This document shows, one piece after another, positions 6,661 to 55,836 of a DNA stretch of 60,995 bases. Each line of letters begins with the position of its first letter. Positions within the stretch are counted from its first letter, which is position 1. The stretch lies in the NCBI GenBank assembly GCA_018399995.1, contig JAGYMU010000004.1:1-60995 (forward strand), in the 5' to 3' direction. Made by a program: the position numbers and the translations under genes. This stretch comes from Halanaerobiales bacterium (lineage in GTDB: Bacteria; Bacillota; Halanaerobiia; Halanaerobiales; M55B127). The notes beneath the pieces are model-generated. The model was not told where the DNA came from. It was given only the letters and a program-made list of their open reading frames with translations, and did no database searches.

Positions 6661-6698
6661 AAAAACCCCCTTGCTGTATTATAGTCAAGGGGGTTTTT
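6661..6698. terminator. Strong bidirectional terminator
   Basis: A 13-bp perfect stem AAAAACCCCCTTG (6661-6673) / CAAGGGGGTTTTT (6686-6698) with T runs readable on both strands. It lies 34 bases beyond the stop of the last gene of the minus-strand redox operon and most likely ends that transcript, while also insulating it from plus-strand read-through. Confidence 0.9.
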
Positions 6699-6731
6699 AT
6701 CTAGATTACTAAAATTTATGAAGATTTTTGA

Positions 6732-8531
6732 TTAATTTTTTAAAAATTCATCTATGCCCTGTGCAGCATTATGTCCGGTTTTAATTCCATTAATAACATC
6801 TGGTCCTCTGACTATATCTCCACCTGCAAAAAGCCAGGGGAGAGAGGTTTGCTGTTTATCGTTGACTTTTATTCTGGGTCCTTCATATTTTATGTCATAA
6901 TTATCATCTATATAACTATTATCACCGGCCTGTCCAATTGCTTCTACAACCATATCACACTCGTAGTTTTGAATATCCTGGTCATCAAAAGTGGGGTTAA
7001 AGTTCATATCATCATCAAAAACAGAAACACAGCAGTTTGTACATATCTGTGAAATACTTCCATCCTCACTTACAATAATTTCTTTTGGTCCTCTACCAGG
7101 CTCGAAATCAACACCTTCTTCTCGGGCTTCTTCTATTTCTTCTTGATCAGCAGGCATTATATCTTCGGTTTCTAGAGATGTGACTAAAACATTTACTTGA
7201 CCGTATTTCTTTTTCTGTAATCTGGCCAATGATCTGGCAATATCCATAGCCACATTGCCTCCGCCAATAACTACAATTTTTTTAGTTAAGGGAATTTCTT
7301 CTCCCTTTGTGATCTGTTTCAAGAGGTATATAGCTTGATATACATTATTATTTTCAGTACCTGGAATTCTTGTACTGCGTCCATTATGGAGCCCAGTAGC
7401 AGCAAAAACTGCATCATATTCTTTTTTAATATCAGATAGTGAAATATCTTTACCTATCCTGATATTGAATTTGAATTCAACACCCAGATTCTTGATATAG
7501 TTGATATCTTTATCCAGCTTATCATAGGGCAACCTATATTCAGGAATTCCATATCTCATCATTCCCCCGGCTTTACTTTCAGCTTCAAAGACAGTTATCT
7601 GATAACCCATCAATTTAAGATAATGAGCAGCAGATAGACCGGCTGGCCCGGCTCCTATTATTGCCACCTTTTTATCAACCTGATGGATTTTTTCTGTGCC
7701 TAAAATTTTATTATATTCAGCCAAATCTACATTATCAACCGCATATCTTTTTAACCAGCGGATAGAAACTGCTTCTCCTCTATGGCTAATAGAACAAATA
7801 GATTCACAGTTATGGGTACAAATCCTACCACATACTTCAGGTAAGGGGTTATCTTCATAAATTTGTTTAAGAGATTCTTCCAGGTCTTCATCATAAATTC
7901 CCCTAATATATTCCGGTATGTTCATACTGGCCGGACATGCTTCAGTGCAGATATCGCATTCTACACAGCGGGAAGCTTCTTTTTCAGCCTGTTTTTTGGA
8001 AAATCCTTTGACTATTTCCATAAAAGACTGTACTCTACTTTCGGCATCTAGTTCCTGCATTTCAATTCTATAGAGATCCAATAGTTCAGAATCTTGATCT
8101 CTTTCATAACCTATTGCAGATTCAATTTTATTGATATTTTTATTATCAGGAATATAGGAAAAACTTTCAGCATCATGATTAATATAAGTATAATCCTGGG
8201 TAAATTGTAAAGAACCTGTTGTGCAAATGTCAACACATAGCCCACACCAGCAGCAGCGTCCATAATCAATTTTGGGTCGTTCATTGCGTTGACCAAGTTC
8301 TGTTTTTACATTCTCTAGTTCTACCATTTTAATAGCCTTATTATCACATATCTTTGAACAGGTACCACAACCAATACATTTGTCTAGGTCATTAATATGA
8401 AAACCCCTATATCTTTTGGCTGTTTTTTTATTTTCTTCAGGTACTTTAATCGTCTCGGGCTTTTTAAATAAATTTTTAAAAGAAACCGCTGGAGAAAAAA
8501 TACTACTTTTATCTTTGCTCAATATTCTCAC
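6732..8531 (-). CDS. NuoI-like ferredoxin fused to GltD/NfnB-like NAD(P)H:acceptor flavoprotein (MbxN fusion)
   Basis: The 599-residue protein has two parts. The N-terminal part is a NuoI/MbxN-like ferredoxin with Cys52/55/58/62 and Cys93/96/99/103 for two [4Fe-4S] clusters. The C-terminal part (about 140-599) is a GltD/NfnB-like module: Cys189/192/195/199 and Cys234/238/242/246, the FAD-binding GAGPAG (293-298), the NAD(P)H-binding GGGNVAMD (423-430) and the C-terminal FAD motif AGGD (569-572). NADPH-type relatives carry a Y-R-R motif after the GGGNxAMD helix; here the segment reads VTSLETED (about 450-457), which hints at NAD(H). As the last gene of the operon it should dock NAD(H) or ferredoxin chemistry onto the NuoB/C/D-like peripheral arm. 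The domain calls are secure; the electron direction is inferred. Confidence 0.88.
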   Translation of the reverse strand: MRILSKDKSSIFSPAVSFKNLFKKPETIKVPEENKKTAKRYRGFHINDLDKCIGCGTCSKICDNKAIKMVELENVKTELGQRNERPKIDYGRCCWCGLCVDICTTGSLQFTQDYTYINHDAESFSYIPDNKNINKIESAIGYERDQDSELLDLYRIEMQELDAESRVQSFMEIVKGFSKKQAEKEASRCVECDICTEACPASMNIPEYIRGIYDEDLEESLKQIYEDNPLPEVCGRICTHNCESICSISHRGEAVSIRWLKRYAVDNVDLAEYNKILGTEKIHQVDKKVAIIGAGPAGLSAAHYLKLMGYQITVFEAESKAGGMMRYGIPEYRLPYDKLDKDINYIKNLGVEFKFNIRIGKDISLSDIKKEYDAVFAATGLHNGRSTRIPGTENNNVYQAIYLLKQITKGEEIPLTKKIVVIGGGNVAMDIARSLARLQKKKYGQVNVLVTSLETEDIMPADQEEIEEAREEGVDFEPGRGPKEIIVSEDGSISQICTNCCVSVFDDDMNFNPTFDDQDIQNYECDMVVEAIGQAGDNSYIDDNYDIKYEGPRIKVNDKQQTSLPWLFAGGDIVRGPDVINGIKTGHNAAQGIDEFLKN

Positions 8532-8546
8532 CTCACTTTAATACTT

Positions 8547-9656
8547 TTATCTATCAAATTCCGGAGGGCAAATTCCCAGGCTGTGTGCCCAGACTGGAAC
8601 ATCTTCAATTCTACATCCCGGCAGAAGGGTTTCTACTCCATATAATCCCAGGGGAGTAGATGTACCTCTTACATGCACTCTGTAAGGCTTTAACCCACCA
8701 TCAGATACAACATAATAACCATATTCTCCTCGAGAAGATTCAATTTTTACATATGCCTCACCGGCAGGTATTTTATATTTAAGGGCATTACCTAAATTAA
8801 GGCTGACCGGACCAGCCGGAATATTGTTAACTAACTGTCTTATGATCTTAATACTCTGAAAGATTTCATCTTTTTTTAATTTCAATCTAGTCCAGGCATC
8901 CCCATCTTCACCAGTGGGAACCTTAAAATCTACTTGATCATAAGCTGCATAAGGCATTAGTTTTCTTACATCATGTTCAAGTCCTGTTGCACGAAGAGCA
9001 GGGCCTGTTACACCTAAGCTTAGGGCATCTTCCTGGTTTAATACAGCTGTATTTTTCCAGCGTTTTTGAGCTATTGGATTTTCGAAGATTAATTTTTGAA
9101 ATTCGGGCATCCTATTATTCTCTAAGTCATTTAGTAAATCAAGTATTTTCTGAAGAGTTACATCTTCAATATCATGTCTTACCCCACCGGGTCTGATGTA
9201 GATATGATAGACCCTGCCCCCGGTTATTTCTTCAAAGATATCCAAAATATAATCTCGGGTTAATACCCCCCACTGCATGGCTGTATACAAACCGATAGCT
9301 CCACAGTTACCACCTATCGAAAATATATGTGCCTGAATCCTGGCCAGTTCTAAGATTATAGATCTGATATAAGCAGCTCTTTTGGGGATTTTAATCTCCC
9401 CAATTGCTTCAAAACTCATCGCATATACCATTTCATTAATATCGGGTTCCATTACACATATTCGGCAGACAAGAGGCGTGTTTTTAATCCATTCCCGTTC
9501 TTCCATTAGTTTTTCAAAGCCGCGGTGTAAATGTCCAGGGTTGGGTTCGGCAGAAACGACAGTGTCACCTTCATAAAAATAGTTGATCCCATAATTACCA
9601 GGTACGCCTGGATGGTTGGGTCCGAAAAACATTTCTGTCCTTTTACTCTTGCCCAT
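8547..9656 (-). CDS. mbxL: NuoD-like / group 4 hydrogenase large-subunit-like protein (MbxL type)
   Basis: This 369-residue subunit is homologous to NuoD and to the large subunit of group 4 [NiFe] hydrogenases. The N-terminal CxxC (Cys64, Cys67) is present. The C-terminal DPCxxC of true hydrogenases is replaced by SLGICPPEFDR, leaving one cysteine (Cys363). A complete NiFe site is therefore unlikely, as in Mbx/Mbs large subunits. A longer frame begins at 9674, but GGAGG stands seven bases before ATG 9656, so I use that start; it overlaps the NuoC-like gene by 14 bases. It should form the peripheral arm with the NuoB- and NuoC-like subunits and pass energy to the membrane arm. Confidence 0.88.
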   Translation of the reverse strand: MGKSKRTEMFFGPNHPGVPGNYGINYFYEGDTVVSAEPNPGHLHRGFEKLMEEREWIKNTPLVCRICVMEPDINEMVYAMSFEAIGEIKIPKRAAYIRSIILELARIQAHIFSIGGNCGAIGLYTAMQWGVLTRDYILDIFEEITGGRVYHIYIRPGGVRHDIEDVTLQKILDLLNDLENNRMPEFQKLIFENPIAQKRWKNTAVLNQEDALSLGVTGPALRATGLEHDVRKLMPYAAYDQVDFKVPTGEDGDAWTRLKLKKDEIFQSIKIIRQLVNNIPAGPVSLNLGNALKYKIPAGEAYVKIESSRGEYGYYVVSDGGLKPYRVHVRGTSTPLGLYGVETLLPGCRIEDVPVWAHSLGICPPEFDR

Positions 9657-10131
9657 GGTATTGCCTCCAATCATACTTTTTATCTACATATTGACGGGTT
9701 TTAAAGTCTTTTCTCATAGGGGGAATTTCATTCCAATTTTCCAAAATTAATTCGTCCATATTATCATTTCCAGTGAACTTAATACCAAAAAAATCATGTA
9801 TATCACGTTCATAATATTTTGCTACTCCCCAGAGGTTTTTTATAGTGACAAACCTACTTTTTTGTCTGTTTATTTTAGTTTTAACACTTAAGCTTATTTT
9901 ATCTTCATATGAGAACAGGTGATAAATTAGTTCAAATTGATTATCTTCGATCCAATCTACACAACTTATTGTTGCAAGGTGAATATAACTGTGAGATTTT
10001 AAATAGTTTAGACCGGAGACGAGTTCTTCATTTTCAAGTCTTATTGATATATTCTGTTTTCTCAGTTTTTTAACAGAAAGCAAGTTTAAATCTCTGTTGA
10101 GCAGTTCTATAAGTTCATTTTCACTTCTCAT
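9643..10131 (-). CDS. mbxK: NuoC-like subunit (MbxK type)
   Basis: A 162-residue protein of the complex I 30-kDa (NuoC) family. The conserved C-terminal core includes WGVAKYYERDIHDFFGIKF (about 113-131) and a terminal MRKDFKTRQY stretch. It carries no cofactor and bridges the NuoB-like and NuoD-like subunits. It overlaps the NuoB-like gene upstream by four bases (ATGA-type coupling) and the NuoD-like gene downstream, consistent with tightly coupled translation in one operon. Confidence 0.88.
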   Translation of the reverse strand: MRSENELIELLNRDLNLLSVKKLRKQNISIRLENEELVSGLNYLKSHSYIHLATISCVDWIEDNQFELIYHLFSYEDKISLSVKTKINRQKSRFVTIKNLWGVAKYYERDIHDFFGIKFTGNDNMDELILENWNEIPPMRKDFKTRQYVDKKYDWRQYHGQE

Positions 10132-10661
10132 TGTCTTCTTTTGACCTCCCCCAGTACTTTTTCTTGATTTTTCTTATATGTTTCATATTCTTTATTATAC
10201 TTTTTATATCCATCTGCATTGCCTGTTTCTATCTTTTCTTTCAATTTTAAAAATCCCTCTAAAATAGCTTCTGGTCTGGGCATACACCCTGCTATATATA
10301 AATCTACCGGTATATATTTATCAAGTTGTTTGATTGTATTATATGAGTCCCAGTACATTCCTCCATTTATGGTACAAGAGCCAAAACCCATAACAAATTT
10401 GGGATCCTGCATCTGTTCATAAGTATAGATAACTCTTCTGAGGGTCTTGGTGCTTAGATAGCCGGTTATTAATAGTATATCAGCCTGTCTGGGTGTTGCA
10501 GCTGGGCCGATGCCAAATCGGCTCATATCATAACGAGAAGTCATAGTTGGTGGTAGTTCAATTGCCCCACAACCTGTACAGTAATGCAGCATAAAAAGAG
10601 ATCTTTTTTGAACCCAATTAATAACCTCCTGCCATTTATTACTTTCGTATTTATTATTCAT
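10128..10661 (-). CDS. mbxJ: NuoB-like small subunit with [4Fe-4S] site (MbxJ type)
   Basis: A 177-residue homologue of NuoB and of group 4 hydrogenase small subunits. All four expected cluster ligands are present: Cys28 and Cys31 (C-T-G-C), Cys96 (GFGSC) and Cys126 (AGCMPRPEA). The CxxC spacing is of hydrogenase/Mbx type, unlike the tandem Cys-Cys of complex I. It would hold the terminal [4Fe-4S] cluster next to the NuoD-like subunit. The C-terminal 35 residues are charged and probably helical. The next gene starts inside its stop region. Confidence 0.9.
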   Translation of the reverse strand: MNNKYESNKWQEVINWVQKRSLFMLHYCTGCGAIELPPTMTSRYDMSRFGIGPAATPRQADILLITGYLSTKTLRRVIYTYEQMQDPKFVMGFGSCTINGGMYWDSYNTIKQLDKYIPVDLYIAGCMPRPEAILEGFLKLKEKIETGNADGYKKYNKEYETYKKNQEKVLGEVKRRQ

Positions 10662-10678
10662 TTAATGATCACTCCTGT

Positions 10679-11575
10679 TTAAAAAATAATGATAACTGCC
10701 TGTAATAATGCAGCGATCAGAGGCCATCGCCAGTAAAAAAGCACACCTTCTTCAACCTTAAAGCGCGGAAATATTGAACCTATTAAAGCTGCTAAAAGCC
10801 ATACTATTAACATCTTTACAATGAAGATAAAAATATTATTTCCCCCACCCAGAAATAGGTCCACAAAAAGTGCGGTTTTAACCACGACTGAAACTGCATG
10901 CTGCAGCATTATAAAGGCCAGATATTTACCTCCGTGTTCAACAACAGGCCCTGAAGCAATTTCAGATGGAGCAACAGGGGCATCAAAGGGTTTTTTGCCC
11001 ATTAATCCTAAAAGGGCAATAAAAGCAACAGCAGTACCAATAGGTATATTGATTAAATTCCAGTTCATAAAACCACTCTGTTGAGCCTGAACAATCCCAA
11101 TTATTGAAGAAGTATTACTACTATAAATCAATGTTAATAAGACCACTATAAAGGGCAGTTCATAGCCCAACATCTGAGTTAGCGCTCTTGATATACCTAC
11201 TGATGCTAAGGGGTTACCAGAACCAACTGTAGCCATAGCCATGCCTAAATAAGCTACAGCCATTAAATATATTACTAATAATAGAGTTCCATTCATTCCA
11301 TATAAAACAAAGGGACCGACAGGTACAAAAAATAGTGTGGTAATCATTCCACCAAAGGCCATAATTGCACCAAAATCAAAAATAAACCCATGTGTAATAG
11401 AATTTTTGGTAAATAATTTTAATACATCTAAGTAGGGCTGGTAAAAAGGAGGCCCAATTCTTTTTTGTACTCTTGCTACTACTTTACGGGCAATACCAAT
11501 AAACAACAGACCTAAAGCCATGGCACTGAATGCCATCATTAAAAATCCAAATATATTTAAAATCATATTATCCAC
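10679..11575 (-). CDS. mbxM: NuoH-like membrane subunit (MbxM type)
   Basis: A 298-residue, roughly eight-helix membrane protein of the NuoH/HyfC family, which joins the peripheral arm to the ion-translocating arm. Recognisable segments are VQKRIGPPFYQPYLDVLKLF (about 36-55) and PFDAPVAPSEIASGPVVEHGG (about 195-215), the conserved acidic loop. It overlaps the upstream antiporter-like gene by 13 bases and is separated from the NuoB-like gene by 17. Mbh and Mbx complexes carry the same subunit between their Mrp-like and hydrogenase-like modules. Confidence 0.9.
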   Translation of the reverse strand: MDNMILNIFGFLMMAFSAMALGLLFIGIARKVVARVQKRIGPPFYQPYLDVLKLFTKNSITHGFIFDFGAIMAFGGMITTLFFVPVGPFVLYGMNGTLLLVIYLMAVAYLGMAMATVGSGNPLASVGISRALTQMLGYELPFIVVLLTLIYSSNTSSIIGIVQAQQSGFMNWNLINIPIGTAVAFIALLGLMGKKPFDAPVAPSEIASGPVVEHGGKYLAFIMLQHAVSVVVKTALFVDLFLGGGNNIFIFIVKMLIVWLLAALIGSIFPRFKVEEGVLFYWRWPLIAALLQAVIIIF

Positions 11576-13434
11576 CCCGCAAAAGCTAATATAACGATGA
11601 AGAGAATCATATAAAAAGCATAAGTTTGTCCATTACCTGTCACAATTGATTTTCTAAATACATTGCCTAATTTTACTATATTTTGAGCAAAAGTATCATA
11701 AGCAGCCGTCAAACTTCTGGCAGCGAAAGAATCAAATACCCGATCAAAGGGTCTAAAATACTGGTATGCATAGTGGTAGGCTTCTGGATCATCCAGATAT
11801 TCACCTGATGTGTAGGTATCCATTAAACCGACCGGTTTTGATTTTTTTACTGAAATAAATATGATAAAAGCCAGCAGAAATCCACCCACGAAAAGACTAA
11901 AGATAACTAATGAATTCCAGGTTCCAAAAGCACCTGTTATTGAATAGAGAGTGAATCCTACGGGTGTAATATTTAAAAGTTGAGAAATTTGATTTATTAA
12001 ATTCATCTGTAGGCCGGGCAGTATTCCAAATAACAATATCAGAGCCATTAAAACAAACATTGGAAGCTGCATCAAAAAAGGAACCTCTTTTATATTTTCG
12101 TGTTCAGGTTTTAATTGACCTAAAAATATAGTGCTCAAGGGTTTAAACACATACATAAATGAGCCTATACTTCCAAAAAAAGCAGCTACAGAGAGAAAAA
12201 TGTAACCTTTTTCTATTAAGGCCTGGTAAATAACCCATTTTGAAATAAAACCATTAGTAGGTGGTATACCTGCCAGGGCAATGATGGCGATTAAATAAGC
12301 TGCAAATGTAACAGGCATCTTAAATATCAGCCCACCCATTTCTCTCATTTTAGTTGTTTTAGTTCTATAAATTACAGCTGCAATACTTAAAAATATGGTT
12401 GTCTTAAAAATCATGTGGTTCATTAGATGAAGAAGTCCACCTGTAAACCCCAGTGGAGTTGAAATAGCTAGAGCCATGATAATATAACCCATCTGAGAAA
12501 TCGAAGAAAAGGCTACTAACCTTTTAACATCTTCCTGTCTTATGGCTAATACTGTTCCGGTAATAACAGTAACACCGCCAAATATAGCCAGTATATAATT
12601 AAATATTGGTAAACCTCTATAATGGATACTGTCCTTTAAAATATTATAGAGAGGTACAAAGTATAAAAGAAGGATCACTCCATAGATACCAACTTTTAAC
12701 ATTAAACCGGACAAAAAAGGAGAGAATTCCTTGGGAGCATTACTATGAGCTCCATTAACCCAGACATGAAAAGGGAATACACCCGCCTTGATTATAAATG
12801 GAATAGCAAGCATAATAATTAATATAATAGATTCTGTGATAGGAAGCCCACTCAAATGAGCTGCCACCTGACTGTATCTTAGGGTATGGATCTGATTATA
12901 TATTATAAAGATGGCTGTAACCATCAGATAAGCTCCTACAGTACTTAAAATGATGTAGCGAAAAGAGGCTTTTTGAGCGGCTTTTTTTTCACCTGATGAT
13001 ATCAGAAAAAAGGATGACCAGGTCATTATTTCCCAGAATATAAACAGGCTTAAAAAATCACCAGCCAAAACTACTCCGAGTATACTACCAACCAGAATCG
13101 CAAAATTAAGATGAAAGGCAGATCTTAACGTATATTCCTGCTGTGATTTAATCGTAAATATTGCAATTAAAAGACCAGCCCCTGTTGTCATAAATATAAA
13201 CAACCAAGATAATGGAGTTAATTGAAAGATCAGCTGTACTTCTCGATCAAATATATAATATGTTATGGACTCATAAGGTATATCCCACTGACCATAGAGA
13301 CGGCTAATTTGATAAAATAGATAAGCAAAAACAACACTGTTTAAAATAGCTAAGGATAACTTGATTTTTTTATTTAAAAAATAAGCTATAAAAGCTATAA
13401 TTATCGGAATAAAGGTATAGTAGAAAAGTGACAT
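11563..13434 (-). CDS. Large NuoL/MnhA-like antiporter subunit (second antiporter-like subunit, MbxH' type)
   Basis: A 623-residue polytopic protein of the proton-conducting antiporter family (NuoL/MnhA/MnhD). The core has the TM5 glutamate (IFWEIMTWSSFF, about 133-144), a charged loop, the TM7 lysine (PFIIKAGVFPFHVWVNGAHSNAP) and TM12 histidine (HLMNHMIFK). About 150 extra C-terminal residues include further hydrophobic segments and a charged stretch around 520-570. Its start abuts the stop of the MnhD-like gene. Mbx/Mbs complexes have two antiporter-like subunits and Mbh has one, so its presence favours the Mbx type. Confidence 0.88.
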   Translation of the reverse strand: MSLFYYTFIPIIIAFIAYFLNKKIKLSLAILNSVVFAYLFYQISRLYGQWDIPYESITYYIFDREVQLIFQLTPLSWLFIFMTTGAGLLIAIFTIKSQQEYTLRSAFHLNFAILVGSILGVVLAGDFLSLFIFWEIMTWSSFFLISSGEKKAAQKASFRYIILSTVGAYLMVTAIFIIYNQIHTLRYSQVAAHLSGLPITESIILIIMLAIPFIIKAGVFPFHVWVNGAHSNAPKEFSPFLSGLMLKVGIYGVILLLYFVPLYNILKDSIHYRGLPIFNYILAIFGGVTVITGTVLAIRQEDVKRLVAFSSISQMGYIIMALAISTPLGFTGGLLHLMNHMIFKTTIFLSIAAVIYRTKTTKMREMGGLIFKMPVTFAAYLIAIIALAGIPPTNGFISKWVIYQALIEKGYIFLSVAAFFGSIGSFMYVFKPLSTIFLGQLKPEHENIKEVPFLMQLPMFVLMALILLFGILPGLQMNLINQISQLLNITPVGFTLYSITGAFGTWNSLVIFSLFVGGFLLAFIIFISVKKSKPVGLMDTYTSGEYLDDPEAYHYAYQYFRPFDRVFDSFAARSLTAAYDTFAQNIVKLGNVFRKSIVTGNGQTYAFYMILFIVILAFAGWII

Positions 13435-14889
13435 TTACATCCCCCCTAAGACATTTGAAATATAATCTGATCTGGATAACAATTCACCTGCAGCCTGATT
13501 TAATGGTTTTATGATTAATTCAGGATAAATTCCTAACAAAAAAACGACAGTGATTAAGACTATGATTGGTACATAAGCCTTGACTATCTTATGGGGATTA
13601 ATACTTATCTTTCCAAAGAAGATCTTTTGTATTACCTTTAGATAATAAGCCATCTCGATGACTGTAGCAAATAAAATTAAAAATGTTAATAGATACTCAC
13701 CTGCATTAAGAGAACCGTTAACTATCATAATCTTACTTACAAAACCATTAAAAAAAGGAACACCTAATATTCCCAGAGATCCTACGGAAAATCCAACAGC
13801 AATCAAAGGTATCTTTTTAGCTATTCCTCCTAAATTAGAAATATCTCTACTACCTGCATATTTAATCATCAAACCAGCTGTTAAAAAAAGAAGTGTTTTT
13901 AAAATTGCATGGTTAAAGAGCTGGAATAAGCCACCGCTTATCGCGTATTTAGTGCCAACACTGATGATAGTTAAAACCAGACTCATCTGCGCAATACTTG
14001 AATAAGCCAGCATTCTTTTAATATCGTCTTGCTGATAAGCAATTAATTCTCCGATGACCAGACTAATTGCGCCGATAATCATCAGATATATATATAAGCT
14101 GGGATTAACAAATAAACTAAAGAAAATCTTAATAAGAGCAATAATTCCAGCTAAAAATACCAGGCCACTTAAAGTAGAACTTACTGCAGAAGGTGCTATT
14201 GAATGTACATCTGGGACCCAGATGCTTAAAGGTAAGATGCCTGCTTCAAAAGCAATTCCAACAAAAAACAAAAGGGAGATTATCTTGATTAAGTCTGGGT
14301 TTATTAGATGTGAAGCAGCAGCGATGAACGCCATGTTCAAACTTCCAACTGCTGAATAAGTAAAACCTATTGCCATTAATAAAAACACAGAACTTATCGA
14401 GCCGATAATTATATATTTGATAGCTGCTTCATACCCCTTATCTTTATTAAAAGTGGTTAATCCATAAGCAGCGACTGTGGTTATTTCTATGAACACAAAT
14501 AAATTAAAAATATCTCCGGTCATCACAATTCCATAAATACCCGCTATAATTATCAAATACAAGGTGTGGAATTTACTTTCTGATGCAAAATTACTGTGAT
14601 TTAAATTATATACAGCTAAAATCAAAGATATTATACTGATCACAGTTATTGAAATCAGCTCTAATGTTCCCACATATAAGTTGATAGCAAAGGGTGCTTG
14701 CCAGCTGCCCAGTTCAATGATTACCGGTTCTAAAATTATTTGATTATAATTTATAATAATTATTAATAGATTTATTGCAGTTGTTAAAACAACAACAACT
14801 GAGGGTAGTTTTTTGTTTATATAGTTAAATAAGGGTATAAGAAATGCAGTTAAAAGAGGTAGTGCAATAATTAATATTATATTCACCAT
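13435..14889 (-). CDS. mnhD: MnhD/NuoN-like antiporter subunit (MbxH type)
   Basis: A 484-residue polytopic protein (about 14 helices) of the Mrp antiporter subunit D family. The TM5 glutamate is in IFNLFVFIEITTVAAYGL (about 128-145). The TM7/8 region reads FEAGILPLSIWVPDVHSIAPSAVS, the equivalent of the usual KAALFPLHFWLPDAH with the Lys replaced by Glu-Ala. A TM12 histidine is in LFQLFNHAILKTLLF. It should conduct Na+ or H+ in the membrane arm. The start overlaps the MnhC-like stop by seven bases. Confidence 0.88.
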   Translation of the reverse strand: MVNIILIIALPLLTAFLIPLFNYINKKLPSVVVVLTTAINLLIIIINYNQIILEPVIIELGSWQAPFAINLYVGTLELISITVISIISLILAVYNLNHSNFASESKFHTLYLIIIAGIYGIVMTGDIFNLFVFIEITTVAAYGLTTFNKDKGYEAAIKYIIIGSISSVFLLMAIGFTYSAVGSLNMAFIAAASHLINPDLIKIISLLFFVGIAFEAGILPLSIWVPDVHSIAPSAVSSTLSGLVFLAGIIALIKIFFSLFVNPSLYIYLMIIGAISLVIGELIAYQQDDIKRMLAYSSIAQMSLVLTIISVGTKYAISGGLFQLFNHAILKTLLFLTAGLMIKYAGSRDISNLGGIAKKIPLIAVGFSVGSLGILGVPFFNGFVSKIMIVNGSLNAGEYLLTFLILFATVIEMAYYLKVIQKIFFGKISINPHKIVKAYVPIIVLITVVFLLGIYPELIIKPLNQAAGELLSRSDYISNVLGGM

Positions 14890-15248
14890 TTCAACCCCCT
14901 TATTTTAGAAATATCAAGCGTATTATATTTTTCATATATTTTAATGATTACTCCTAAACCCAGTGCTAGAACAGCCACACCGATTACAATGGATGTAAGA
15001 ACCAGGGCTTGAGGAATAGGATCGACAAAGTTATAAGAATTATTGTTTATTGTAGAAGTAATAATTGGTGCAAAGCCCCCTTTTACATAGCCTAAGGAGA
15101 CTAATAGAACATTGATGCCTGTATCCATTAAACTCAGTCCAATAAAAATCTTAATTAGATTCTTTCTGGTAATTACCCCATAAAGGCCGATTAAGATAAG
15201 GAGAATAGAACCACCAAAAAAAGACCATTTTTCCAGAAAGTCAATCAT
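14883..15248 (-). CDS. mnhC: MnhC/NuoK-like membrane subunit
   Basis: A 121-residue protein with three predicted helices, of the NuoK/MnhC family. The N-terminal helix is followed by GVITRKNLIKIFIGLSLMDTGINVLLV (about 24-50), and the third helix by PIPQALVLTSIVIGVAVLALGLGV, the PLPQALVLTAIVI signature of the family. It is part of the ion-translocating Mrp module. There is a 33-base gap to the preceding gene, with a visible purine-rich ribosome site. Confidence 0.9.
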   Translation of the reverse strand: MIDFLEKWSFFGGSILLILIGLYGVITRKNLIKIFIGLSLMDTGINVLLVSLGYVKGGFAPIITSTINNNSYNFVDPIPQALVLTSIVIGVAVLALGLGVIIKIYEKYNTLDISKIRGLKW

Positions 15249-15281: not shown

Positions 15282-16043
15282 TTATGCTTTCATTAAATCA
15301 TTTATTATATTCGTAAGTTCTACAGCTACTTTCAAACCTATTGTAATATATAATATGGGGACGATTCCTCCACTAAATAAATTAGCAATAGTACCGGTTT
15401 CTAAAAAATTCGTTAAAAAAGATCCTTCTGCATATAATCCATAAAGGCCTATACTAACAAAACTGACTCCGGCAGTAACTTCAATTGCTTTTAATTTATT
15501 TTCATCTAACTCATACTCTTTACTACTTAACAATTTAAGTAAAAGGGCAGTTGCGATTACTGCACCCCCTTGAAAACTCCCGCCGGGACTTAGGTGTCCA
15601 TAAATTATTATATAAGAACCTGCCAGGATTAATAGAGGGAAAAGTATCTTTATACCATTTTTTAGTATAAATGAACCTTCCTTTACTACAAAATTATTTT
15701 TTGCATGTTTCTTATTATAGAGTATGGCACTTAATCCGGTTGCTGCTAAAAAGAGAACTGTTACTTCCCCTAGAGTATCAAGGGCACGGTAATTTGCCAC
15801 AATGGAAGTAACTATATTTGCAGAACCACTTTCTTTATCTTTACTTTCCTTATATATTACTTCCTCATTAGGAGAGTTAACGCTTTTATCTATATATAAT
15901 TGGGCTGTTCTGTTTTCTATATCTGCTTTCCCAAAATTATTTAGAGCGATTTCCCCTTTTTCAGGAGAAATCAAAAAGGCCTGCAAAATAAAAATACCCA
16001 ATAAAATAACCGTCATTAAGGCCAATATCTTGCGAAAATTCAC
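15282..16043 (-). CDS. Fused MbxE-MbxF (MnhA C-terminal-like plus MnhB) subunit
   Basis: A 253-residue membrane protein made of two units that are separate genes in archaeal Mbh/Mbx clusters. Residues 1-110 have an N-terminal helix, a soluble charged stretch, and the signature NYRALDTLGEVTVLFLAATGL (about 88-108), typical of the MbhE/MnhA C-terminal family. Residues 120-250 are MnhB-like, with YGHLSPGGSFQGGAVIATA (about 148-166). The start is GTG 16043, whose G is shared with the TAG stop of the preceding gene; GGAGGG lies just upstream. Confidence 0.85.
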   Translation of the reverse strand: MNFRKILALMTVILLGIFILQAFLISPEKGEIALNNFGKADIENRTAQLYIDKSVNSPNEEVIYKESKDKESGSANIVTSIVANYRALDTLGEVTVLFLAATGLSAILYNKKHAKNNFVVKEGSFILKNGIKILFPLLILAGSYIIIYGHLSPGGSFQGGAVIATALLLKLLSSKEYELDENKLKAIEVTAGVSFVSIGLYGLYAEGSFLTNFLETGTIANLFSGGIVPILYITIGLKVAVELTNIINDLMKA

Positions 16044-16282
16044 TAATTTTCCCTCCCTTCAGTTTTATATAAGGTTATGATAAAGATAGCTGTGGATAGT
16101 CCTGCTCCGATAGCTGCCTCAGCCATTGCTACATCAGGGGCTCTTAAAAAATAGAACAAAAATGCAGCAATTAGACTAACCATACCCGCTGAAATTATTG
16201 AGTTAACAAGTTTATCAAAAATAAGAGCAGCTATCCCACTAATTAACATTAGCAAAATTAAAAAACTATAAAGCAGAGTCAT
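16043..16282 (-). CDS. DUF4040 (MbxD/MnhA-fragment) membrane subunit
   Basis: A 79-residue, three-helix protein of the DUF4040 family, corresponding to a segment of the large MnhA subunit. The identifying stretch is LRAPDVAMAEAAIGAGLSTA (about 46-65), where the acidic residues line the ion path in Mrp-type modules. It overlaps MnhG upstream by 17 bases and the fused MbxE-F gene downstream by one base. Confidence 0.87.
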   Translation of the reverse strand: MTLLYSFLILLMLISGIAALIFDKLVNSIISAGMVSLIAAFLFYFLRAPDVAMAEAAIGAGLSTAIFIITLYKTEGREN

Positions 16283-16631
16283 TTATATCACCACTTTTGT
16301 TATACAGAACATCCTCATTATATTTATTTACAGTAGTTAATTTTGAAACTTTAATTCCATTTTTTATAGAGGAGCGTGCTATAGTTTGACTTCCAATTGG
16401 ATTGGTCATAACAATAAACAAGGCTATAATTAAAGTTTTTAAAAACCAGGAGGGCTGGATAAGTCCTACCCCAATTATTGTAGAAAGAGCACCAAGTGTA
16501 GTAGCCTTAGTACCAGCCTGGATTCTATTGTATAGATCAGGCATCCTGATTAGTCCTAAAGAACCTAAAAATAAGAAGACCGCACCGATACTTATCAAAA
16601 AGTAACCGATTACCTTAAGTAGTATTAACAT
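16266..16631 (-). CDS. mnhG: MnhG-like membrane subunit
   Basis: A 121-residue protein of the Mrp subunit G family, with three helices. The family signature LIRMPDLYNRIQAGTKATTLG is at about 27-47. The C-terminal 30 residues are hydrophilic and unlike the core. It is a small structural subunit of the Na+/H+ module. It starts three bases after the MnhF stop and overlaps the next gene. Confidence 0.9.
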   Translation of the reverse strand: MLILLKVIGYFLISIGAVFLFLGSLGLIRMPDLYNRIQAGTKATTLGALSTIIGVGLIQPSWFLKTLIIALFIVMTNPIGSQTIARSSIKNGIKVSKLTTVNKYNEDVLYNKSGDINDSAL

Positions 16632-16634
16632 AGA

Positions 16635-16883
16635 TTAACCACTTCCTTCAATATAACGGGCTATGATTATAACACTTGTGAAAGATAAGGCTGCAAATAC
16701 TAAAGAGATATCTAAATAAATATTGTTCTTGAAAAATAAAGCAACTAAGACAAGTAGGGAACTGATAACTGTTGTGATAGTATCAAGGGCAACCGTTCTA
16801 TCGGCTGAGCTTGGTCCTTTAATTAGTCTAATAGTTCCCAATATTAAAGCTAGTGATAATATTAAGAAAACTAAATTAAGCAA
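16635..16883 (-). CDS. mnhF: MnhF-like membrane subunit
   Basis: An 82-residue, three-helix protein of the Mrp subunit F family. The signature RLIKGPSSADRTVALDT is at about 19-35. It begins one base after the MnhE stop. Small size and signature leave little doubt about the family. Confidence 0.9.
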   Translation of the reverse strand: MLNLVFLILSLALILGTIRLIKGPSSADRTVALDTITTVISSLLVLVALFFKNNIYLDISLVFAALSFTSVIIIARYIEGSG

Positions 16884-17375
16884 CTAAAATACCCCCTTTA
16901 AAATACCCGTAAATTTACCGGTAATTAATTTTTTCTGTAACTTAGGCTGATTACTTTTGAAATCTATCCAATGGATGTATAACAAATCATCTATAACATC
17001 TATTGTGAGGGTGCCTGGGGTTAAAGTTATTGAGTTAGCCAAAAATAGTTTTGCGTAATCAGACTTTAATTCAGTAGAAATTTTTACTATGCCGGGGTTT
17101 ATAGGTAGATTGGGATTTATTACGCGGCGAGCGACATCAATATTTGCTTTGATCATCTCAATGATGAAAACTGGTATATATCTTAATAGATTGAAAATGC
17201 GGACAAAAATATTATTATCACTGCTTTTTTGACTAAAGCTTTTGTATGTAAAAAACGATAATAATATTGAGATGGTGATACCTGCAAGCATTTCTTGCAT
17301 GGCTAGGCTGCCTGTATAAGCCAGCCAGAAGAGAAAATAGATAATAAGAGTAGAAAAATATCTTCTAAAATCCAA
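16884..17375 (-). CDS. mnhE: MnhE-like membrane subunit, first gene of the Mbx-like operon
   Basis: A 163-residue Mrp subunit E protein with N-terminal helices and a soluble C-terminal domain containing LANSITLTPGTLTIDV (about 113-128), the family hallmark. The start is TTG 17375; AAAGGAGG seven bases upstream decides it. This is the promoter-proximal gene of the operon, preceded by the promoter and palindrome described at 17426-17470. Confidence 0.9.
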   Translation of the reverse strand: MDFRRYFSTLIIYFLFWLAYTGSLAMQEMLAGITISILLSFFTYKSFSQKSSDNNIFVRIFNLLRYIPVFIIEMIKANIDVARRVINPNLPINPGIVKISTELKSDYAKLFLANSITLTPGTLTIDVIDDLLYIHWIDFKSNQPKLQKKLITGKFTGILKGVF

Positions 17376-17425: not shown

Positions 17426-17470
17426 ATATCATTATATTTAAATATTATGATATTAAGATATGTTTGTCAA
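17426..17470 (-). promoter_or_regulatory. Mbx operon promoter overlapped by a 28-bp palindrome
   Basis: On the minus strand TTGACA (17465-17470) is followed after 17 bases by TAATAT (17442-17447); CATAAT at 17444-17449 with 15-base spacing is an alternative -10. Over the -10 lies a palindrome at 17426-17453: outer arms ATATCAT and ATGATAT, and a central ATATTTAAATAT. Its two halves match at 26 of 28 positions. A long dyad on the -10 is the expected site for an ArsR-type repressor, and such a gene lies 340 bases away, divergently. The pairing of regulator and site is inference. Confidence 0.72.
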
Positions 17471-17793: not shown

Positions 17794-18087
17794 GTGGAAG
17801 AGATTACTAAAGATATGGATGAAATTAAAAGCAAAGCTAAATTACTAAAGGTCATATCACATCCTATTCGATTATGTGTGGTCAAGGGGTTAATGGAGAG
17901 TGAAGGATATAATGTAACTAAAATTCAGAACTGTCTTAATATACCTCAGTCCACTCTTTCCCAGCATTTAAGTAAACTAAAAGACTTAGGTATAATTGAA
18001 GGAACACGCAAGGGAGTAGAAATAGAATATCATGTGAAAAATGATGACATAAAAAAGATAATAAACACAATATTTAATGATAAATAA
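17794..18087 (+). CDS. ArsR-family winged-helix regulator
   Basis: A 97-residue DNA-binding protein. The recognition region VTKIQNCLNIPQSTLSQHLS (41-60) followed by KLKDLGIIEGTRKG is typical of ArsR/SmtB proteins. The classic metal motif ELCVCDL is absent; the two cysteines are Cys28 (IRLCVV) and Cys47 (in the HTH), so a thiol or redox signal is as likely as a metal. GTG 17794 is chosen because AGGAGG lies seven bases before it. It is divergent from the Mbx-like operon and faces its palindromic operator. In Pyrococcus the ArsR-like, redox-sensing SurR controls mbh and mbx; a comparable role here is inference. Confidence 0.85.
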   Translation: MEEITKDMDEIKSKAKLLKVISHPIRLCVVKGLMESEGYNVTKIQNCLNIPQSTLSQHLSKLKDLGIIEGTRKGVEIEYHVKNDDIKKIINTIFNDK

Positions 18088-23568: not shown

Positions 23569-24039
23569 TTATCTATTATCGATAACTTTATTTACCGCTC
23601 TTTCTATTCCTTCATATCCAGTACACCTACATAAATTGCTGTTCAGCCACTCCTTTATTTGTTGTTCATTGGGTTTTTTATATTTATCTAAAAGTGCATA
23701 AGCATTTACAATAAAACCAGAAGTACAATAGCCGCACTGGTATCCTTCTTTATCAATAAAAGCTTTTTGAATTTCGGTTTTCTTAAGTCCTTCTATAGTT
23801 GTAATATCGTTACCTTCCATTTCTACTGCTAAAGCCATACATGATTTGAAAGGTTTATCATTGATTAGAACGGTACAGGCTCCACAGTCCCCATTTTCAC
23901 AGCCTGCTTTTGGGCCGGTTAATTCTAATTTATCTCTCAATATATTTAATAATGTTTCATTAGGCTTTACTACAACTTTGTATATTTCATTATTGATCTT
24001 TAGTGAAATTTCTTTATTACCTTTGTATGTTATCATCAT
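23569..24039 (-). CDS. Molybdenum hydroxylase, [2Fe-2S] subunit (XdhC/CoxS/HcrC type)
   Basis: A 156-residue protein with two [2Fe-2S] domains. The N-terminal plant-type site has CENGDCGACTVL (about 43-54) plus a later Cys near 67. The C-terminal site has CGYCTSGF (about 107-114) and CRCTGYEGI (about 138-146). It passes electrons from the molybdenum subunit to FAD. It overlaps the FAD subunit gene by four bases and is the last gene of the three-gene operon. Confidence 0.92.
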   Translation of the reverse strand: MMITYKGNKEISLKINNEIYKVVVKPNETLLNILRDKLELTGPKAGCENGDCGACTVLINDKPFKSCMALAVEMEGNDITTIEGLKKTEIQKAFIDKEGYQCGYCTSGFIVNAYALLDKYKKPNEQQIKEWLNSNLCRCTGYEGIERAVNKVIDNR

Positions 24040-24875
24040 ATCTCACTCCCCAATTGATCTAAACATGAATTTAAGGAATTTCTAAAAAGCATTTCTTTAT
24101 AATCTTTACCACCACGATAATTAGAACTAATAGGAACCGGCAGGTTATTTACTACTTGGTCTATTTTTTCCAGGCGTGTTAATTTATTATCATTGATGAT
24201 AGTTTCTAAATCTTTATCGCGAAATGGAAAGGCACAGAGTGAACTTAAGGATGTTTTAATTTTGTCATTTTGTTTGAGGGCAACCAGATGCATAATAGGG
24301 TAATCGATTTCACTTTGTTTAACTTCTCTTATCTGAAAATAAGGTAGATCGATAACACCTTTATCAATATGAATCTGTAATAAAATATCTTCCGGTTTAA
24401 GCTGTAATCTTTTGTCAAATAATTGAGTTATTTTTTTGATTGTGATTCCATTTTGAGTCATAACTTTAAGGTTTGCATTCGCCACTAATAAAGATAAAAC
24501 AGCTTCTTTATAAGGGAGCTTGCCTGCCAAATTACCCCCTATAGTAATTTGGTTTCTGGTGGTATGATCGGCTATACCTCTGCAGGAATTACTTAATAAA
24601 GGGAAATAATTTTTTTCTATTATCATATTTAATGGTACCGAAGATCCAATAATAATCTGTTTTTCATTGGATTTTAATACAGAACATTCCGGGATATTTT
24701 GTATATCAATCAAAGCAGAAAATTTAATTTTATTTTTTCGGGCATATGTAACTATTTCTGTACCACCATTGTAATATAATACATTTTGATTTTGTTCTGA
24801 TAGTTCGAGATATTTATGAAGTGCCTCTTTTGCATTTTCTGCTCGGTAATAGTCAAAGTCAAAACTAATCATCAT
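24036..24875 (-). CDS. Molybdenum hydroxylase, FAD-binding subunit
   Basis: A 279-residue protein of the CoxM/XdhB family. The FAD pyrophosphate motif appears as YNGGTEIVTYARKNKI (about 35-50) and the second as TIGGNLAGKLPYKEA (about 111-125). The C-terminal CO-dehydrogenase flavoprotein domain spans about 170-275. It would hand electrons to NAD+ or ferredoxin. It overlaps the molybdenum subunit upstream by 11 bases. Confidence 0.9.
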   Translation of the reverse strand: MMISFDFDYYRAENAKEALHKYLELSEQNQNVLYYNGGTEIVTYARKNKIKFSALIDIQNIPECSVLKSNEKQIIIGSSVPLNMIIEKNYFPLLSNSCRGIADHTTRNQITIGGNLAGKLPYKEAVLSLLVANANLKVMTQNGITIKKITQLFDKRLQLKPEDILLQIHIDKGVIDLPYFQIREVKQSEIDYPIMHLVALKQNDKIKTSLSSLCAFPFRDKDLETIINDNKLTRLEKIDQVVNNLPVPISSNYRGGKDYKEMLFRNSLNSCLDQLGSEI

Positions 24876-27198
24876 TATGACCCTCCTTTACATTTTTATA
24901 AATCAACTCAGGTATTAAGGGCAATTCCTTAATTTCTTGATTAACTGCATTTGAAATAGCATTGGCTAGAGCTCCTGGCATACCGATAACTCCTTGTTCA
25001 CCCAGGCCTCTAGCCCCAAATGGCCCATCACCCTGTGGTGTTTCTATAAATTCAACATAATAATTGGGGTGTTCACCATATCTTAATATCTTATAGTCTC
25101 TCAGTGTATCATTTTGTACTAGATTTGATGAATTAAAAGAAAACCCCTCACTGCGGGCAAAACTAAGACCCATAGCCATCGCTCCTGTCACTTGTCCACG
25201 TGCTAAATCCGGATTAATAACTTTACCCACATCCATTGTCGAAGCAGCTTTTTTTATTTCATAGGAGTAATTACGTAAATTAAATTCTATTTTAACTGCT
25301 TGGGCCCCTAAAGTCCATTCTAAGGCAGGTCTTCCTTCACCTGTTTTAGGGTCCATACTGCTTAATTTACGGGCAATATAATTACCTCGTCCTATTATTT
25401 GACCCCCTATTGCATTACCATTTTCATAAACATAACCCAGACAGAGATCTCTTACTTTAATAAAAATGTTTGGTTCATCAGTCATAAAAACTTTTTGTTC
25501 AGCAACTGTTAAGTCTTCTACAGGACATCTTAAAACTCTTGCCGCTGTATTTTTTAATTGCTGTATGGCGTCTTCAGAGGCATTAATAGCTGCGCGACCA
25601 GCCATCATAAGACTGCGGCTGGCTGCAGTTGCCCAATCATGGGGTCCTGTTTTAGTATTTACTTCTGAAGTGATGTGAACTTTATTTAAAGGCATTTGCA
25701 GTTTTTCTGCAACGATCTGTCTCAAAGCGGTTTTTGTACCCTGACCAATTTCAACAATTGAATTATGTAAATTTACACTTCCATCATTGTTGAAGGTTAA
25801 AATAGCTCCAGCATCAGTATTTGTAGGCATAGCAGGTGATTTCCAGAGTAATCCCATGCCCCGCGCAATTACTTTATCATTATCAATTTTTACTACTGAA
25901 CCCTGATCCCAGTTTATCAATTCAGCAGTTTTATTAATACAGGCTTTCAAATCCCCTGTGTTATTGTCCATCAAACTTCTGGTAGGAGTTGTATCGCCTT
26001 TTGAGATAGCATTAATTAGTCTTAATTTTACAGGGTCAATATCAATTTTTTTTGCTAAAATATCTATACTCCGCTCTATCACATAGGCTAGTTCTATATG
26101 TCCAAAACCCCTATAGGCTGTTGCAAAGGGATGATTTGTATATAAACAGTATGAATCACAATTTAGATTGTCAACCCTGTAAGGTCCAGTGGCAGATATA
26201 GCTGCAGCTCTGCTCACATTGACGGCATAATCTGCATAAGCACCTGCATCAAAATAGTACTGTAGGTCCATTCCTGTTATATTTGCCTGCTCATCTGCTG
26301 TGATGGTGACATTTGCCTCTAGACCTATATGTCCAGGTGAAGAGACCATATCATCTTCTCTTTTATTAACTATTTTAACTGGTTTTCCGCCTACAGATTT
26401 GGATAATATATAGGCTAATCCCTCTAGTTGCAGGCCGGCTTTTCCTCCAAATCCCCCTCCAATAGGAGGGGCTATAACATTGATCTTCCCAGTTGGAATA
26501 TCAAAATTAAAAGCCAGCAATTCTTTGACAACAAAAGGAGCCTGAGTAGTAGAATAAATTTGCACATCACCATTTGCTTTAATTTCAGCAACAGCAGATC
26601 TGTTTTCCATAGCAACATGGTCACCGGGAGGGAATTTAAATTTTTCCTTTATTACATATTTTGCTTCTTTAGCTGCTTTTTGGTAATTTCCTTTTCTTAT
26701 TTTAGTTAAATTTGCTATATTGCTGTTAGGTTGGGGAACAACATCAGGAATATGATTATAATTCTTAAGATTCTGATGCAGAATAGGAGCTTCTTTTTTT
26801 AGGGATTCCCGGGATGAGCTAACAGAATTAAGTTTTTTATATTTAACCCTTATCTTCTGAACAGCTTTTTCTGCATCTGCTTTACTTTTTGCAATTACAG
26901 CAGCTACAGGTTCACCATAGTACCTTACTTTTTGAACTGCCAGGGGTGGTTTATCTCCCAGATAAAGACCCATAGCATGAGGATGATAATCACCTGTAAG
27001 CACTCTTTTAACACCAGGTGAATTTTCTGCCTCTTTTATATCAATATTTAGGATTTCAGCATGGGCATGAGGGCTGCTCAAGATTGATGCATAAAGCAAA
27101 CCACCAAATTTCAAATCATCTAAATATTTCTGGTCACCACTAATCTTATCCAGACCATCATTTCTTTTAATTGATTTGCCGACAAAACTTTTTGTCAA
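24865..27198 (-). CDS. Molybdenum hydroxylase, molybdopterin-binding large subunit (xanthine dehydrogenase family)
   Basis: A 777-residue catalytic subunit. The N-terminal a/b hammerhead domain is at about 10-115. The cofactor-binding motif PIGGGFGGKAG is at about 244-254, TAYRGFGHIEL at about 360-370, and the catalytic glutamate in FGARGLGEQG near residue 740. The start is TTG 27198, supported by AGAGGTGG. Such enzymes hydroxylate purines, nicotinate, 4-hydroxybenzoyl-CoA or aldehydes. The sequence alone does not settle the substrate, and no purine or nicotinate pathway gene is adjacent. No XdhC-like insertion chaperone or cofactor gene lies in the window. Confidence 0.9.
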   Translation of the reverse strand: MTKSFVGKSIKRNDGLDKISGDQKYLDDLKFGGLLYASILSSPHAHAEILNIDIKEAENSPGVKRVLTGDYHPHAMGLYLGDKPPLAVQKVRYYGEPVAAVIAKSKADAEKAVQKIRVKYKKLNSVSSSRESLKKEAPILHQNLKNYNHIPDVVPQPNSNIANLTKIRKGNYQKAAKEAKYVIKEKFKFPPGDHVAMENRSAVAEIKANGDVQIYSTTQAPFVVKELLAFNFDIPTGKINVIAPPIGGGFGGKAGLQLEGLAYILSKSVGGKPVKIVNKREDDMVSSPGHIGLEANVTITADEQANITGMDLQYYFDAGAYADYAVNVSRAAAISATGPYRVDNLNCDSYCLYTNHPFATAYRGFGHIELAYVIERSIDILAKKIDIDPVKLRLINAISKGDTTPTRSLMDNNTGDLKACINKTAELINWDQGSVVKIDNDKVIARGMGLLWKSPAMPTNTDAGAILTFNNDGSVNLHNSIVEIGQGTKTALRQIVAEKLQMPLNKVHITSEVNTKTGPHDWATAASRSLMMAGRAAINASEDAIQQLKNTAARVLRCPVEDLTVAEQKVFMTDEPNIFIKVRDLCLGYVYENGNAIGGQIIGRGNYIARKLSSMDPKTGEGRPALEWTLGAQAVKIEFNLRNYSYEIKKAASTMDVGKVINPDLARGQVTGAMAMGLSFARSEGFSFNSSNLVQNDTLRDYKILRYGEHPNYYVEFIETPQGDGPFGARGLGEQGVIGMPGALANAISNAVNQEIKELPLIPELIYKNVKEGHNDD

Positions 27199-47999: not shown

Positions 48000-49010
48000 G
48001 TGCAAGAAAATGTAGGGATACTTTCGACCGGTGTTTATATACCGAACAATTATATGGATAGTAAAGAACTAGCTGAAAAAACTGACATACCAGAAGATGT
48101 AATCAGAGAAAAGTTTGGTATAAAGAAAAAACCCATTCCCGGTGAAAATGATCATACTTGTGCAATGGGAATCAAGGCTGCTAATACTGCGATAAGAAAA
48201 GCAGATATTGATCCTAATGACATCGATCTAGTTATCTGGGCAGGGGCAGAACATAAAGAATATCCAATGTGGACTGCTTCTATCAAATTACAGTATGAAA
48301 TTGGCGCTAAAAAAGCGTGGGCTTTTGACATAGCTCTCAGGTGTGGGACCATGATAATGGCGATGAAAGTTGCCAAAGATATGCTATTATCTAATGATAA
48401 TATGGATACAGTTTTAATTGGATCTGGTTATAGAAATGGTGATTTAATAGATTTTGATAATCCTAGAGTATCATTTATGTATAATCTGGGAGCAGGTGGA
48501 ACAGCCGTTATACTTAAAAAAGGTCTTAATAAAAACATAGTTCTGTCTGCAACTGCAGAAACTGATGGATCTCTCTCAGAAACTGTTGTAGTGCCAGCTG
48601 GAGGTACAAAAAAAGAGCTGACAGCTGAAGGTTTAAAAAACAATGAAAACCATTTAGATGTTATAGATAGTGAATATATGAAAGAAAGGCTTAATGAAGT
48701 TTCACTGGAAAATTTTGTAGGGGTTGTAAAGGATTCTGTTAAAAATAGTGGATATAAAATGAACGATGTAGACTATATTGCAATTCTTCATATGAAGTAT
48801 TCAGCTCACAAGTTTATGTTAGATCAACTGGGTTTAACAGAAGAACAAAGTATTTATCTAAATGAATATGGTCATATAGGTCAAAATGATCAGATAATAT
48901 CTTTAGAATTAGCTTTAAATAAAGGTAAAGTGAAGACGGGAGACCTCGTTGTTTTTGTTAGCGCGGGTATTGGTTATGCCTGGAATGCGCTTACCATTAA
49001 ATGGGGATAG
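48000..49010 (+). CDS. KAS III / HMG-CoA synthase-like condensing enzyme, atypical (first of two)
   Basis: A 336-residue thiolase-fold protein of the FabH/KAS III kind. The nucleophile is Cys115 (IALRCGTM). His264 (ILHMK) takes the place of the HQAN histidine. The usual catalytic Asn (YGNTS) is His292 (EYGHIGQND). It therefore has Cys-His-His rather than Cys-His-Asn. It starts at GTG 48000 and is first in an operon with a FabG-type reductase, a CoA-transferase and an ABC importer. It may make or cleave a 3-ketoacyl-CoA in acid breakdown rather than take part in fatty-acid synthesis, since no ACP or other fab gene is present. Confidence 0.82.
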   Translation: MQENVGILSTGVYIPNNYMDSKELAEKTDIPEDVIREKFGIKKKPIPGENDHTCAMGIKAANTAIRKADIDPNDIDLVIWAGAEHKEYPMWTASIKLQYEIGAKKAWAFDIALRCGTMIMAMKVAKDMLLSNDNMDTVLIGSGYRNGDLIDFDNPRVSFMYNLGAGGTAVILKKGLNKNIVLSATAETDGSLSETVVVPAGGTKKELTAEGLKNNENHLDVIDSEYMKERLNEVSLENFVGVVKDSVKNSGYKMNDVDYIAILHMKYSAHKFMLDQLGLTEEQSIYLNEYGHIGQNDQIISLELALNKGKVKTGDLVVFVSAGIGYAWNALTIKWG

Positions 49011-55810: not shown

Positions 55811-55836
55811 TTTTATTAAAGAAAGGAGTGTTCTAT

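Follow-up and report, generated by a model that had tools for sequence, protein, structure and literature searches.

The window analyzed here (60,995 nucleotides, contig G000:C170 of the draft genome, 80% complete, of a halophilic, anaerobic member of the Halanaerobiales) contains an operon of 13 genes homologous to the sulfane reductase MBS of P. furiosus, and the last of these genes joins an MbsN-like ferredoxin to a complete GltD/NfnB-like flavoprotein in a single chain. Its NuoB-like subunit has the residues of a three-cysteine proximal cluster, and the flavoprotein half combines a StnC-type lysine with the loss of the usual NADPH clamp. We give about even odds (a probability of roughly 0.5) to the reading that the complex is an NAD(H)-linked MBS, in which NADH would reduce polysulfide by way of the fused subunit and this electron flow would drive ion translocation.

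All 13 genes are on the minus strand, running from position 17375 to 6732 with intergenic gaps of at most 33 bases or with overlaps. The first gene is mrpE (16884 to 17375; PF01899), followed by genes for MrpF (16635 to 16883; PF04066, E = 1e-15), MrpG (16266 to 16631; family profile matches), MbxD of the MbhD/DUF4040 type (16043 to 16282; PF13244, E = 3e-19), a fused subunit with MbhE-like and MnhB (MrpB) parts (15282 to 16043; PF20501 and PF04039), and MbxG/MrpC (14883 to 15248; family profile match). Next come the antiporter-like subunits MbxH (13435 to 14889; 6u8y_H, E = 1.4e-89) and MbxH' (11563 to 13434; 6u8y_X, E = 2.2e-91; NF006419 above its cut-off), the NuoH-like membrane anchor MbxM (10679 to 11575; family profile matches), the NuoB-like MbxJ/MbsJ (10128 to 10661; 6u8y_J, E = 4.6e-74), the NuoC-like MbxK (9643 to 10131; family profile matches), and the NuoD-like MbxL/MbsL (8547 to 9674; 6u8y_L, E = 2.6e-99); the fused gene (6732 to 8531) is the 13th. 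Upstream of mrpE lies a promoter-like TTGACA-17-TAATAT stretch (17442 to 17470, minus strand), which is a consensus match only; a similar stretch precedes mrpE at the Halanaerobiales loci L006, L008, and L009. Just behind the stop codon of the last gene, a terminator-like inverted repeat with a long GC stem (CCCCCTTG...CAAGGGGG, then TTTTT; 6661 to 6699, minus strand) was read from the sequence, its loop being longer than the hairpin scan allows.

The fused gene is an uninterrupted open reading frame (ORF) of 599 codons that carries both halves. Its first 130 residues are NuoI/MbsN-like, with subunit N of P. furiosus MBS as the best solved match (residues ∼6 to 130; 6u8y_N, E = 2e-29), and two CxxCxxCxxxC sets (C52, C55, C58, and C62; C93, C96, C99, and C103) are predicted to hold two 4Fe-4S clusters. 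Residues ∼155 to 598 match GltD, NfnB, and StnC (4ylf_B, E = 8e-73; 5jca_L, E = 3e-70) and contain eight more conserved cysteines (positions 189, 192, 195, 199, 234, 238, 242, and 246), predicted to bind two further 4Fe-4S clusters, as well as two nucleotide-binding Rossmann sites for FAD and NAD(P)H (Pfam PF14691 and PF07992). The protein therefore has four cluster-binding sites, two in each half. In P. furiosus MBS, subunit N is a plain ferredoxin-like protein of 208 amino acids, whereas its counterpart in the window is fused to an NAD(P)H:flavin module of 440 residues. The listed start codon is a GTG; a TTG a few codons downstream has a better-placed GAGGTGA ribosome-binding site and may be the true start, and the fusion is unaffected either way. 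Full-length homologues with open frames of ∼600 to 627 amino acids occur in Halanaerobiales, Spirochaetaceae, Bacteroidota, and Marinimicrobia and, as found through a family search, in Thermotoga, which argues that the fusion is neither a sequencing artifact nor a chance ORF. In the alignment of the NCBIfam family NF010590 (PRK13984, "putative oxidoreductase") with the window protein, profile positions 7 to 608 of 611 are covered, and the score of 895 bits falls slightly short of the curated cut-off (946 bits), which no Halanaerobiales member and no sampled Bacteroidota member reaches. An AlphaFold2 prediction of the fused protein, made with 12 family members, was poor (mean pLDDT of 62, pTM of 0.50, and pLDDT below 45 in the ferredoxin half), and we therefore took neither a structural search nor cofactor geometry from it.

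When subunits or domains were searched singly, the best solved match was P. furiosus MBS (6u8y) for all five (J, L, H', H, and the ferredoxin half of N). The MBX of P. furiosus has been characterized as the sulfane reductase MBS, which is set apart from MBH and complex I by a shortened proximal-cluster motif in MbsJ (three residues shorter than in MBH), with C28, C93, and C123 as ligands and C25 non-ligating, by the retention of C85 and C385 in MbsL, and by the absence of the quinone ligands Nqo4 H38 and Y87; in all three complexes, redox chemistry is coupled to ion transport at the MbsJ/MbsL chamber (PMC7684303). The J subunit of the window can be aligned with MbsJ along 165 residues with no gaps, placing C28, C31, C96, and C126 on MbsJ C25, C28, C93, and C123; in L, C73 and C369 align with MbsL C85 and C385, and the positions of Nqo4 H38 and Y87 are occupied by P25 and V74. 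At the position of MbsJ C25, the operons from Salinivirgaceae, Marinimicrobia, and divergent Bacteroidota have a glycine, which limits the proximal cluster there to three cysteine ligands. Taken together, the MBS-type cysteine pattern, the gap-free J subunit, and the missing quinone ligands indicate that, judged by its residues, the active-site chamber is MBS-like and neither hydrogenase-like nor quinone-like. Gene content agrees with this subunit homology: Mrp-type subunits, H and H', and NuoH-, NuoB-, NuoC-, NuoD-, and NuoI-like subunits are all present. The operon thus shares with P. furiosus MBS the number of 13 genes, the Mrp-type distal arm, the pump subunits H and H', the NuoH/B/C/D-like subunits, the diagnostic cysteines of MbsJ and MbsL, and the lack of NiFe and quinone ligands. 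A preliminary description of this DNA had proposed an MBX-type complex whose operon ends with a NuoI-like two-cluster ferredoxin fused to a complete GltD/NfnB-like module with two four-cysteine sets and FAD and NAD(P)H motifs, and each of these points is borne out here.

The coenzyme site of the flavoprotein half departs from that of its solved relatives. NfnB and StnC chains of known structure have YRR behind the second strand of the NADPH domain, where it clamps the 2'-phosphate of NADPH; alignment to these chains places VTSLETED at this position (residues 450 to 457; 7161 to 7184, minus strand), which confirms a loop that had been picked out earlier as a sign of NAD(H). Every fused homologue has E454 and lacks YRR, with the exception of one divergent member (L055), which has YRR. 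An acidic residue without an arginine at the clamp position of a Rossmann domain usually means NAD(H), and the lost clamp together with the VTSLETED loop suggests that NAD(H) is preferred over NADPH, although a loop alone is weaker evidence for this than a coenzyme-bound structure would be. A complete MBX operon from a divergent member of the Bacteroidota encodes a fused subunit (L056:9087-10853) that has both a YRR NADPH-type loop and the Stn-type lysine. It offers a natural contrast in coenzyme type, and different lineages may thus use different coenzymes.

This lysine, K261 in the window protein (codon at 7749 to 7751, minus strand), aligns with K170 of StnC, and R333 aligns with StnC R239, giving the strictly conserved lysine and arginine of the StnC type; each of the 14 distinct fused homologues with sequence at this position has a lysine. 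In StnC, K170 ligates the FAD-proximal cluster, and its exchange for alanine or cysteine leads to a severe loss of activity; the FAD of StnC is a non-bifurcating entry flavin, and NfnB has a glutamate at the K170 position (PMC10482914). The stand-alone NfnB-like protein L016 has a glutamate at the K261 position and a YRR loop. The position of StnC C114 is an isoleucine in the window protein, and valine or isoleucine also replaces C114 in two StnC homologues (PMC10482914). By these residues, the flavin site resembles the non-bifurcating electron-entry module of StnC rather than NfnB. StnC (Sporomusa StnABC; PDB 8oh5) likewise joins a GltD-like domain for NAD(P)H and FAD to an Fe-S protein of the complex I type; however, its fusion partner is a NuoG domain, and it uses NADPH, has YRR, and is partnered by StnAB, whereas the window protein has a NuoI-like fusion partner and is encoded with ion-pump subunits. 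NfnB (NfnL) of NfnAB (PDB 5jca) has the same FAD/NADPH fold and two [4Fe-4S] clusters but differs in its glutamate at the proximal cluster and its YRR clamp for NADPH, and it is a soluble protein that bifurcates with NfnA. The fused protein lacks the glutamate at the FAD-proximal cluster, and neither an NfnA/NfnS-like gene nor a second flavin was found in the operon, which places it outside NfnAB.

From these features we infer the donor (NADH), the acceptor (polysulfide), the direction of electron flow, and the pumping of the NAD(H)-linked MBS favored here. NADH would dock on the GltD half and pass a hydride to FAD, from which two electrons would leave singly through the lysine-type cluster and the second [4Fe-4S] cluster. 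They would then cross the two NuoI-type clusters to the site-differentiated proximal [4Fe-4S] cluster in J, where polysulfide or another sulfane sulfur compound would be reduced. This reduction would power the movement of H+ through H and H' and, in the Mrp part, the exchange of Na+ for H+; ferredoxin may also exchange electrons with this wire, in either direction. Indirect support comes from physiology: expression of mbxA in Thermotoga maritima rises 4.4-fold with S0 (PMC9431562), and the genome encodes two full-length proteins that resemble CoA-disulfide/NAD(P)H sulfur reductases (C192:13880-15193 and C57:2158-3459), both below the family cut-off. With NADH at about −320 mV and polysulfide at about −260 mV, little energy would be available, at most about one ion per two electrons and at favorable ratios. 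Published models, in which MBX/MBS depends on ferredoxin, also count against an NADH-linked complex.

Because the driving force from NADH to polysulfide is so small, we do not place the NAD(H)-linked MBS above even odds and keep as a serious rival a dual-donor sulfane reductase, in which NADH and reduced ferredoxin would both deliver electrons to polysulfide, by confurcation or at averaged potentials, and thereby provide more driving force than NADH alone. The conservation of both clusters in the MbsN-like half and of both clusters in the NAD(P)H half, which together form one wire, speaks for such an arrangement. True confurcation is unlikely, since the operon has no second flavin and no NfnA/NfnS-like partner gene and the StnC-type lysine points to a non-bifurcating flavin; parallel use of the two donors is possible. 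As a whole, we regard the dual-donor scheme as unlikely, if worth keeping in view.

The preliminary description had suggested a possible ion-pumping ferredoxin:NAD+ oxidoreductase, an "Rnf-like function from different parts," in which electrons would run from ferredoxin through the NuoI-like half and FAD to NAD+, with Na+/H+ transport by the MBX arm in parallel to Rnf. One chain does combine a ferredoxin-type entry with a flavin of the NAD(H) type, about 160 mV would be available, and the Mbx of P. furiosus has been called a ferredoxin:NADP+ oxidoreductase that may pump ions (PMC6349859). On this route, however, electrons would skip the MbsJ/MbsL coupling chamber, whose residues are nonetheless conserved as MBS type, and the P. 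furiosus complex has been characterized as a sulfane reductase (PMC7684303). Moreover, RnfC is encoded in the same genome, apart from the operon on contig C225, and in all 33 other genomes checked, so that Rnf is present in 34 of 34 genomes searched, including every bearer of the fusion. We looked for a loss of Rnf in fusion-bearing genomes and found none, and thus no substitute for Rnf is needed there. No RnfABCDGE subunit is among the 13 genes of the operon; the Rnf complex is built from unrelated subunits and would share with it only the net reaction proposed earlier. With the coupling chamber bypassed and Rnf already encoded, this proposal does not hold up well, and we judge it to be improbable.

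An NAD(P)H:quinone oxidoreductase that substitutes for complex I, with the GltD-like module in place of NuoEFG, would make use of the complex I-like overall architecture and of the NAD(P)H entry module. The NuoD-like subunit, however, has P25 and V74 instead of the quinone ligands, and the proximal motif of the NuoB-like subunit is the CxxC of MBS and not the CC of complex I, so that the features of a respiratory complex I are missing at both sites and this function is very improbable.

The NAD(H)-linked MBS draws on a fusion that is not peculiar to the window. The nearest named relative of the window is the locus of a Halanaerobiales MAG (L006), with 91 to 98% identity across the operon proteins. 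Whole operons with the fusion beside mnhE-to-nuoD-like genes were found in several phyla: gene order is conserved, with the fused gene last, in Halanaerobium kushneri, H. saccharolyticum MA284_T2, a Spirochaetaceae MAG, a Salinivirgaceae MAG, Marinimicrobia TCS52, a distantly related genome from the phylum of the window (L049), and a divergent Bacteroidota genome (L056). An accidental fusion of a glutamate synthase small subunit that serves nitrogen assimilation, as the family name GltD could suggest, is next to excluded by the conservation of the fusion together with MBX in several phyla, and no full-length GltB large subunit, named earlier as a partner that would overturn the assignment, was found in the 80%-complete genome, the GltB of Halanaerobium being encoded on other contigs.

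The fused family is patchy, with 8 bearers among 38 Halanaerobiales genomes, 2 among 200 sampled across the phylum, and 2 among 297 sampled in the neighborhood of the Salinivirgaceae genome. The J gene is present in 7 of the 38 Halanaerobiales genomes, all 7 of which have the fused gene, and never occurs without it (Fisher P = 6e-7, ignoring shared descent). Only H. saccharolyticum WC1 has the fused gene as an orphan (L011:8753-11800), abutted by a Mutator-family transposase and with the rest of the operon missing; in this copy, the second ferredoxin cluster is short of one cysteine (GRCWCGLC versus GRCCWCGLC). The WC1 orphan, a single genome, fits the idea that the ferredoxin half is kept only where the complex is kept.

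Among 14 named control genomes searched with NF010590 (E up to 1e-150), only T. maritima matched, with a member above the 946-bit cut-off, unlike the window member. This agrees with the link to Thermotogae mentioned in the preliminary description, and T. maritima has a published MBX of 13 subunits, modeled with ferredoxin as the donor (PMC9431562). The T. maritima member shares with the window protein a full-length match over both halves, and its complex has the same number of subunits. Since NF010590 spans both halves and has this member, the fusion, whose novelty had been left open earlier, is already known to databases. We presume that the fused gene of T. maritima is adjacent to its MBX operon. 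In the open papers searched, the fused NAD(P)H module is not described.

MBS, for which ferredoxin is the known donor, is regarded as standing between hydrogenase pumps and complex I. More tentatively than the NAD(H)-linked MBS itself, and at somewhat less than even odds, we propose that the fusion represents a separate route to an NADH-fed relative of complex I, in which a GltD/StnC-type flavoprotein, fused to the wiring subunit of the ancient sulfane-reducing pump, replaced the ferredoxin donor to yield an NADH:polysulfide pump without NuoEFG, the YRR loop of L056 suggesting a change of coenzyme within the family. If this widespread complex is an MBS with its own NAD(H) flavoprotein, some fermenting bacteria could respire sulfur directly from NADH and conserve energy in doing so, and NADH input to the superfamily would have arisen at least twice, from unrelated flavoproteins. 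The flavin-proximal lysine and the coenzyme loop yield clear testable predictions, for which H. saccharolyticum MA284_T2 and H. kushneri are cultivated hosts of the operon and WC1, without the operon, is a natural control.

Several regulators and possible regulatory sites were seen near these operons. An ArsR-type regulator with two cysteines (C28 and C47) is encoded divergently from the operon in the window (17794 to 18087, plus strand) and also at L006:229-522; SurR, which controls MBS in Thermococcales, is ArsR-like too. A Rex-like candidate site in the window has three mismatches and is not conserved in L006, a 95% relative, and we therefore do not claim Rex control of this operon. A Rex-like site with one mismatch lies upstream of the L012 operon. 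In Marinimicrobia TCS52, a gene for a Rex-type (NADH/NAD+-sensing) repressor, preceded by a long palindrome, lies immediately ahead of mrpE and shares its direction (L014:441-1082), a position that would fit an NADH-linked role.

Counting against the NAD(H)-linked MBS, no obvious sulfur genes were found beside the MBX operons except for metA and metY (sulfide-using homocysteine synthesis), which, as seen by eye, converge on the operon end in Halanaerobium (L008 and L009, ∼11930 to 14290). Elsewhere in the window, inspection of the translations revealed a three-gene cluster resembling xanthine dehydrogenase (23569 to 27198), with 2Fe-2S, FAD, and molybdopterin subunits. Also by eye, a set of branched-chain amino acid-type ABC transporter genes, together with genes for a CoA transferase-like protein and a short-chain dehydrogenase, is flanked by two genes of the ketoacyl-ACP synthase III type (48000 to 49010 and 55828 to 56829).
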